In this document: positions 42,901 to 45,900 of the stretch, one piece after another
Numbering within the stretch: the stretch's first letter is position 1
Layout of the letters: every line of letters begins with the position of its first letter
NCBI RefSeq assembly: GCF_041381155.1
Contig: NC_091145.1
Location: 41,381,697-41,445,696 of the forward strand
Reading direction: 5' to 3'
Length of the DNA: 64,000 nucleotides
DNA from: Argopecten irradians
Lineage: Eukaryota > Mollusca > Bivalvia > Pectinida > Pectinidae
Notes under the pieces: model-generated
The model's input: the letters and a program-made list of their open reading frames with translations, nothing else
Told to the model about the DNA's origin: nothing
The model's database searches: none
Translations under genes and position numbers: made by a program

Positions 42901-45900
42901 AACCCTAACTGTAGTCTATATATAAGATACATTACCTTTCAGGATGTCTAACCCTAACTGTAGTCTATATATAACATACATTACCTTTCAAAAGGATGTC
43001 TAACCCTAACTGTAGTCTATATATAACATACATTACCTTTCAGGATGTCCAGTATGTGTTTGGCTGCATACCAGTTGGTTGTTTCAAAGCTTGGGAAAAG
43101 ATACTTGGCTGGTGTCTTCACACGCTTCTCTATTTCATACACTCTGTTCACAGACAGAAGTTTTCAAAGCTATCAATTTATCTAGACGACATTTTACACA
43201 AAATATTCACAGAAAATTTAGTAAACTTCATTTCTTACATACACAAGTTAATCATATTTATATTTACATTAAATAATATCATATATATATGTAATAAAGT
43301 AAACTTCATTTCTTATATATACAAGTTAATCAATTTATATTTACACCCAGTAATATTCTATGTTTATTTAATTGGAAATGACTCACTATCAAACCATAAG
43401 CAATATTTTAATTTGAAAGTGTGTTATGACATGCTCAGTAAGATGCCTGCAATAATATTGTATATCATATGATAACAATTTGAGAACAATACCGCTGATT
43501 CGTAATTGTAAATGGACAGAAGGTAAGACAGACAATCTGATTATTATTTGTATAAAAGACTTACTGAAGCTGAAGAGGTATGTTGTGATCATGTAAGAAG
43601 TTGCCTCCGAACACAAGGGAATCGATGGGTGTGAATACCGCGTGGATCCAGCCGGTGGGAATAAAAAGGGTCTGCCCTTGTTTCACAACACATTTATAAC
43701 ATGTGTCCACCTGATCACCGAAGAATGTTTCACTCTGAGTCGACGAAGACAACCAGCTCTCATACAGGGACAAGTTGGCCTGGGATGGCCGGATCAGGTA
43801 GAACACTTTCTCTCCCTGAAATCATCATGTCTAACATAAACTTCCTGTCAAATCAATAACAATATTATCATGTGCTGATGGGGCTACAAGTCTGCAACGA
43901 TAACATTCACAAAAATGTGTTTGTCATCACCATTTAAAAGTATTTTTAGTTTACATTGTTTTTGGAGGAACTTAAACATCAAGTCAACAAGAAATATATA
44001 CACACTGTATTGAAAAGAAATAATAGTGTTTTCTTACAAGTAGACTTGCATTCTATGTCATGTCCGCCAAATAGGCCAAAGCCCTAAAGGTAAAACTATG
44101 TAATCACATTGTTATTGGTATCAAAGGCCTAAGGGTAAAACTATAAGATCATATTGTAATCAAGTTTCAAGAAAACTGGTTAACAATACATTTTTGTTAC
44201 AGAATGTAAAAAGGAGAACCAATTTTTGTAATCAACCTGTCCTGATTCTGCTTAAATCACATTTGCCTGAAGTGGTAATCAAACTTGGTTAAGCCTTAAG
44301 GCATTCAATCTGTCATTACCAGACTGAGGGGTCAATACTTACCCGTAAGATATGGTACCTGGCCTTGATTTCTCGAAACAAAAGGGCAGACTTAAGTCAA
44401 AACTTAAGTTTTTCTCCTTATGTAACTTATATGAAATTTTTTGACTTTAGTCAGTTTGTGACTTAAGTTTGTTTCGAGAAATTGGGGCCAGACTGAGGGG
44501 TCAATACTTACCTGTAAGATATGGTACCAGACTGAGGTGTCAATACTTACCCGTAAGATATGGTACCAGACTGAGGTGTCAATACTTACCCGTAAGATAT
44601 GGTACCAGACTGAGGTGTCAATACTTACCCGTAAGATATGGTACCAGACTGAGGTGTCAATACTTACCCGTAAGATATGGTACCAGACTGAGGTGTCAAT
44701 ACTTACCCGTAAGATATGGTACCAGACTGAGGTGTCAATACTTACCCGTAAGATATGGTACCAGACAGACTGGGTCAATACTTACCTGTAAGATATGGTA
44801 CCAGACTGAGGTGTCAATACTTACCCGTAAGATATGGTACCAGACTGAGGTGTCAATACTTACCCGTAAGATTTGGTACCAGTATGAGATGTCAATACTT
44901 ACCCGTAAGATATGGTACCAGACTGAGGTGTCAATACTTACCTGTAAGATATGGTACCAGACTGAGGTGTCAATACTTACCTGTAAGATATGGTACCAGA
45001 CTGAGGTGTCAATACTTACCCGTAAGATATGGTACCAGACTGAGGTACCACCAAAGTCTATGTGGAAGTCCGTGAAGCTTTCCCTCACACCCATCAGACA
45101 GTATTTCTGGACGGCAGGCTTGGTGTACGTACAGTCATCAGGTAACTGTTCTGGCCAGACATTGGACACCCAGCTCAGTTGTCGCACCAGGGTAGGAGGT
45201 ATCACAAGTTCTGACAACCTGGTACACATTTACAAGACAGTTATTCAATACAAATTGGGATTGCCTTATTGAGAATACAATTACATTTATATTCAATATG
45301 CTTCAGTAAGTCTTTTGGTATTTTGTATTCTGGTGATCGGGTGGTGTAATGGTTAGGCCGCTTGCTTTTCACCTAGCTGGCCGGGGTTTGATCCCCGGCG
45401 CGGACGTGAAAAGGTTAGGGGTCATCTGCCCGATCACGTGGGTTTTCTCCGGGCACTCCGGTTTCCTCCCACACTAAGACCCCTCGCACACTTACAACCG
45501 GGTCATCGAGAGTGATTTGCATAAGTTGTATAACTTTTTTCGTAATCGATGTAAAAGAAATAAAGTTGATATTTTATATTTTGTATTCAATCTATTTTAT
45601 GTCTTACAGTGTTATCCACCATTGTGGATAGGTACCGATTGTTACATCATATTGCATGTTTTTGTGATGTAATGTCACATTTTTTCAGGGAAAATGACAA
45701 AGTTTTCACTCATAATCAATACCTACCTGCATGGGCAGATAACTCTGTAATATGTAGACGGTCTAGTTCTACTTCAGAATAAATACAATGTCTTTGATTA
45801 GAATATACATCTTACTGTGTTTTAGAGAACTCCAGACTGATAACGTTGTAGATTTTGGACCTGTTCGGACTGTTATAATATTCTGTCCATTCTCTCATCA

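Follow-up and report, generated by a model that had tools for sequence, protein, structure and literature searches.

Minisatellites across the exon 7 and exon 9 splice donors of a probable KDM7-type histone demethylase gene in the scallop Argopecten irradians

Tandem repeats that reproduce a splice donor are known from human genes. In the VNTR of ABCA7 intron 18, which has a 25-bp unit and comprised about 12 to 427 units among 452 people, the first GT serves as the exon 18 donor (PMC5954066). The same study describes RNA that retained one unit, beside canonical splicing at the first GT, at a level constant with VNTR length, and skipping of exon 19 that rose with length; summed, the alternatives (one-unit retention, another cryptic site and exon 19 skipping) exceeded the canonical product in 90% of frontal-cortex (BA10) samples (PMC5954066). 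Given these abundant alternative transcripts, donor-spanning arrays elsewhere need not, by analogy, be quiet. A minisatellite also supplies donors in human IFI6 (6-16, G1P3), where two downstream repeat units act as donors, three mRNAs are made and the 130-aa form predominates, as summarized in a secondary source (PMC4526556, citing Turri 1995). In human duplicated genes, minisatellites at exon-intron boundaries (units average 30 bp) can alter splicing (PMC2812944). Between competing donors, SRSF1 can shift the choice to the intron-proximal site and hnRNP A1 to the distal one (PMC5585400). Among the titles and abstracts listed on bivalve and scallop minisatellites, none described a splice-junction case. 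The original prediction for the locus described below had called an in-frame splice-junction minisatellite inside a catalytic domain unusual; ABCA7 and IFI6 (PMC5954066, PMC4526556) provide precedents. The scallop arrays belong to this known kind and make a good test case in that they occur twice in one conserved gene, their units take in exon bases and the exon 7 donors are near-perfect.

The locus lies in a 64-kb stretch of Argopecten irradians DNA (hereafter, the window), on the minus strand of which we modeled a gene with the following features around its exon 7:

28064..49567, minus strand: probable histone demethylase gene of the KDM7/PHF8/PHF2 type, 951 aa from 21 coding exons, with PHD, JmjC and helical domain
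45020..45218, minus strand: exon 7, ending at residue 271, its last 27 bases within the repeat unit
43565..43815, minus strand: exon 8, which carries on the frame from donors 1-7
44488..45046, minus strand: minisatellite with a 39-bp unit that spans the exon 7 donor and holds 14 donors (45019-44511)
44746..44785, minus strand: 40-bp, frame-shifting unit of this array, parting donors 1-7 (upstream) from donors 8-15
about 44367..44487, minus strand: palindromic, MITE-like insert of 121 bp that detaches the last array copy
44320..44366, minus strand: outlying last copy with donor 15 (44342), and the array end

In the gene model (exons from 49567 down to 28064), all introns are GT-AG, all phases agree and a single frame is open. 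The product of exons 1-10 carries an N-terminal PHD finger (PF00628), a JmjC domain (PF02373) and a Jumonji helical domain (PF17811), and its best PDB matches are KDM7A (3kv5) and PHF8 (3kv4). The top database protein was the lysine-specific demethylase 7B-like isoform X1 of Pecten maximus (95% identity over the full length), followed by a Pinctada protein with 68% identity. Residues H257, D259 and H329, which we take to be the HxD...H iron ligands of a KDM7-type demethylase, are present in the scallop product and invariant in 34 homologs picked from 239 that we fetched. On these sequence matches, the host gene most likely encodes a KDM7/PHF8-type histone demethylase. The assignment of the authentic exon 7 donor to position 45019 was borne out: the site is in phase 0 and splices in phase to exon 8, and the resulting protein has no insert and is uninterrupted at the junction, as in three aligned bivalve orthologs.

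The exon 7 array is a repeat far beyond chance, with a period of 39, 14.3 copies and 95% matches (TRF), to which the outlying copy adds one. It holds 15 complete GTAAGT donors on the minus strand (numbers 1-8 at 45019, 44980, 44941, 44902, 44863, 44824, 44785 and 44745; numbers 9-15 at 44706, 44667, 44628, 44589, 44550, 44511 and 44342). Of the 13 complete units between donors 1 and 14, 12 are 39 bp long and the other is 40 bp. The unit consists of 27 bases that match the end of exon 7 (not 28, as first counted) and 12 intron bases, with the donor in the form GTAAGTATTGAC; the authentic donor sits within such a unit, as 27 exon bases followed by GTAAGTATTGAC. As originally described, the authentic junction reads CGG/GTAAGT and donors 2 and 3 have CAG instead, a sequence that precedes the GT in four of the 15 donors (2, 3, 7 and 14). 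The copies vary little: besides this CAG/CGG difference, the copy at 44902 has diverged, another is 40 bp long and the last ones are interrupted by the 121-bp palindrome, of which we found no second copy within the 64-kb window. As at ABCA7, the repeat unit re-creates the authentic donor in each copy. The ABCA7 unit, however, starts at the donor, has no exon bases and shifts the frame when retained, whereas the scallop unit includes 27 exon bases, keeps donors 2-7 in frame and lies inside a catalytic domain. The likeness to IFI6 is that a minisatellite supplies several donors; IFI6 is interferon-induced and its donor use was shown in RNA, whereas that of the scallop donors is predicted from sequence.

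The original prediction that the donor is multiplied about 15 times in frame stood for the number of complete donors, but only donors 1-7 are in frame; donors 8-15 lead to premature stops in every case. Splicing from donors 1-7 gives full-length frames of 951, 964, 977, 990, 1003, 1016 and 1029 residues, which agrees with the predicted steps of 13 residues and adds up to 78 residues. The in-frame steps are limited to these seven donors because the unit at 44785-44746 is 40 bp long.

We scored donor strength as the number of matches to the 5' end of U1 and as RNA duplex energy. All 15 array donors matched U1 at 10-11 of 11 positions (-13.3 to -14.0 kcal/mol), in comparison to 5-9 of 11 matches (-3.1 to -9.6 kcal/mol) at the 19 remaining donors of the gene. 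Among 938 intronic GTs outside both donor arrays, other real donors included, one scored 10 and none 11. The strongest donors of the gene are, thus, those lined up in the exon 7 array. Donors 2, 3, 7 and 14 were marginally stronger than donor 1, and neither U1 matches nor duplex energy revealed a feature of the donor sequences that explains a preference for donor 1. Because the 15 donors are near-equal and donors 2 and 3, as anticipated, are slightly better U1 matches, donor strength alone would not favor donor 1. That some means of preferring the first site is needed, as proposed, is consistent with these scores and with the second array described below. The four of 15 donors that read AG/GT allow speculation about recursive splicing.

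The original prediction did not include a second donor array with the same anatomy, which spans the end of exon 9. Further arrays touch or approach junctions of this gene:

43037..43143, minus strand: exon 9, ending in HILDILK plus one base, its last 13 bases within the unit of the array that follows
40431..43049, minus strand: minisatellite with a 49-bp unit that spans the exon 9 donor and holds 53 copies of AAAG/GTAATGTAT
28139..28220, minus strand: 35-bp tandem repeat (2.3 copies) across the exon 21 acceptor
46808..48010, minus strand: minisatellite with a 30-bp unit, its end 7 bases away from the acceptor of exon 4
30451..31506, minus strand: 35-bp minisatellite that nearly fills intron 18 (24 and 38 bases from the junctions)

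The exon 9 array (52.8 copies) carries 53 identical donors, mostly 49 bases apart and much weaker than those of the exon 7 array. Only the first gives the full-length product and the other 52 lead to stops, so it is not in-frame expansion that is being preserved. A functional series of isoforms is unable to explain this array, judging from its reading frames. Exon 9 needs either use of the first donor or tolerated loss, and whichever applies suffices for exon 7 too. The upstream copy of the exon 21 acceptor (exon start at 28181), if used, would bring in a stop at codon 928. The units of the three junction-spanning arrays are 39, 49 and 35 bp, one of three being divisible by 3; that exon 7 is the sole spanning array with a multiple-of-three unit is what is expected about once in three. 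The exon 9 unit also holds TTAGGGTTAG, a telomere-like motif that is probably there by chance.

We compared the positions of 14 arrays, merged from the TRF rows in the gene after dropping overlapping rows with other periods, with random placements (3000 each). When up to 30 exon bases could be overlapped, junctions were spanned by three arrays, compared with an expectation of 1.6 (P 0.19), and five arrays lay within 40 bases of one, compared with 3.5 (P 0.25); when up to 60 could be, the expectations were 3.0 (P 0.61) and 4.9 (P 0.59), respectively. For arrays of at least 300 bp, spanning had P values of 0.21 (up to 30 bases) and 0.63 (up to 60), and four arrays were within 40 bases of a junction against 1.8 expected (P 0.06 with up to 30 bases; P 0.24 with up to 60). 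With no exon overlap allowed, which makes spanning impossible by construction, proximity within 40 bases gave P values of 0.05 (all arrays) and 0.015 (at least 300 bp). An enrichment of arrays at junctions lacked clear support, 3 of 14 spanning (P 0.19) being not clearly above chance; larger arrays show a weak tendency to lie near junctions. The overlap of the exon 7 array with a junction is unremarkable because the gene is rich in arrays.

The window as a whole produced 76 TRF rows, overlapping ones counted, including very large minisatellites at 12201-16311 (31 bp x 133) and 20704-25040 (66 bp x about 66). A 57-bp array in intron 20 (28669-29455) is largely open on the minus strand, where it reads as peptide repeats, and lies outside the coding model of the gene. 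On the same strand, a single open frame of 617 aa (9019-10869) has an N-terminal RING finger and appears TRIM-like by eye, and a non-LTR retrotransposon (54218-57529) encodes an endonuclease, a reverse transcriptase and a PHD-like finger just below the Pfam cut-off. Exon-like pieces on the plus strand (53715-60962) flank the retrotransposon and resemble, by eye, a RecQ-type helicase gene.

We consider it likely that the exon 7 array is a minisatellite that grew neutrally and that most of the mRNA is spliced from the first donor (45019). The array would have originated from the tandem duplication of a 39-bp stretch straddling the border of exon 7 and intron 7 and would have grown by slippage or unequal exchange. 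Donor 45019, the exon-proximal one, would prevail, probably by exon definition and by being the first available during transcription. The downstream donors would be minor, with donors 2-7 contributing a few 13-residue in-frame steps and donors 8-15 producing transcripts prone to decay; the intron-proximal donors of the array would, from their frames, be unproductive if used. In ABCA7, too, canonical splicing at the first GT persists beside one-unit retention, and the predominant 130-aa form of IFI6 is the shortest one.

The original prediction allowed for a ladder of JmjC variants. In such an outcome, donors 1-7 would all be used to make demethylases with 0-78 extra residues in the active-site hairpin, and array length would tune activity. 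This outcome is unlikely, although donors 1-7 all give full-length frames and are very strong, and IFI6 (PMC4526556) offers a precedent with several used donors. The place of insertion can be viewed on the Lottia ortholog (P0001, with the same residue numbers), modeled by AlphaFold2 with a mean pLDDT of 80.5 (local blocks 56, 71 and 85); the model matches the PHF8 and KDM7A structures. In this model, a turn that links strand 266-269 to strand 273-279 holds residue 271. This is the least disruptive place for an insertion, and a folded variant with an insert is conceivable, since such a turn can tolerate extra residues. The insert would, however, follow the HxD pair (257, 259) and Tyr267 and split them from Lys274; the equivalents of Tyr267 and Lys274 in PHF8 presumably contact 2-oxoglutarate. 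Demethylase activity thus seems at risk in the modeled structure. Also against this outcome are the stops reached from eight of the 15 exon 7 donors, the out-of-frame exon 9 array (52 of 53 donors) and the variation between in-frame copies 1-6, in which every difference alters a residue (R/Q, T to I, V to Y and H to Q); copy 7 is frameshifted. These replacements are, in a small sample, as for an unconstrained peptide.

Database proteins pointed in the same direction. The 239 fetched homologs combined the best 120 of 1770 and the best 120 of 5149, with one shared; 222 fitted the junction pattern, 17 did not, and none had a motif resembling the insert (SIDTSxWY-like). A search with the insert only (the donor-7 product, with the repeats alone scored) gave no match at E 0.001 or better among 2914 candidates, within a length window and among the cluster representatives of a database clustered at 90% identity, where one cluster may conceal a scallop isoform with a single insert. 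Of the 222, one homolog is without three residues at the exon 7/8 junction and one fish homolog (P0113) has 17 unrelated extra residues exactly there, with V first and LQ last. The latter resemble a retained intron, which suggests, but does not prove, that an old intron occupies this site. In the AGGT model, introns are gained by tandem duplication. The boundary repeats of human duplicated genes are said to have given rise to new introns in recent paralogs (PMC2812944), whereas the scallop intron is probably old.

A burden of the kind described for ABCA7, with longer arrays reducing correct splicing or causing the next exon to be skipped and copy number tuning the dosage of the demethylase, comes next and is improbable as well. 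Exon 8 has 251 nt, a length not divisible by 3, so that its skipping would shift the frame, and exon 19 skipping grows with the VNTR in ABCA7; single-unit retention, on the other hand, is independent of length there (PMC5954066). It is a still slighter prospect that the exon 7 array is a length-variable rheostat, with donors 1-7 used side by side in 13-residue steps, donors 8-15 and the 53 of exon 9 feeding decay, and array lengths setting the demethylase output of each animal. An assembly artefact, or a collapsed or expanded repeat, is very improbable: tandem arrays are prone to assembly error, but the copy differences are structured (CAG/CGG, the diverged copy, the 40-bp copy and the palindrome-split copy), and the exons on either side are intact and keep the phase.

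The gene provides a natural test of donor choice: one transcript contains 15 near-perfect, almost identical donors at intervals of about 39 bases, and 53 identical, much weaker ones that are mostly 49 bases apart. The number of reads per donor could tell apart models in which the first donor transcribed, exon definition or the intron-proximal site decides. These results suggest that splice-junction minisatellites such as those of human ABCA7 and IFI6 also occur in a mollusc, twice within one conserved gene.
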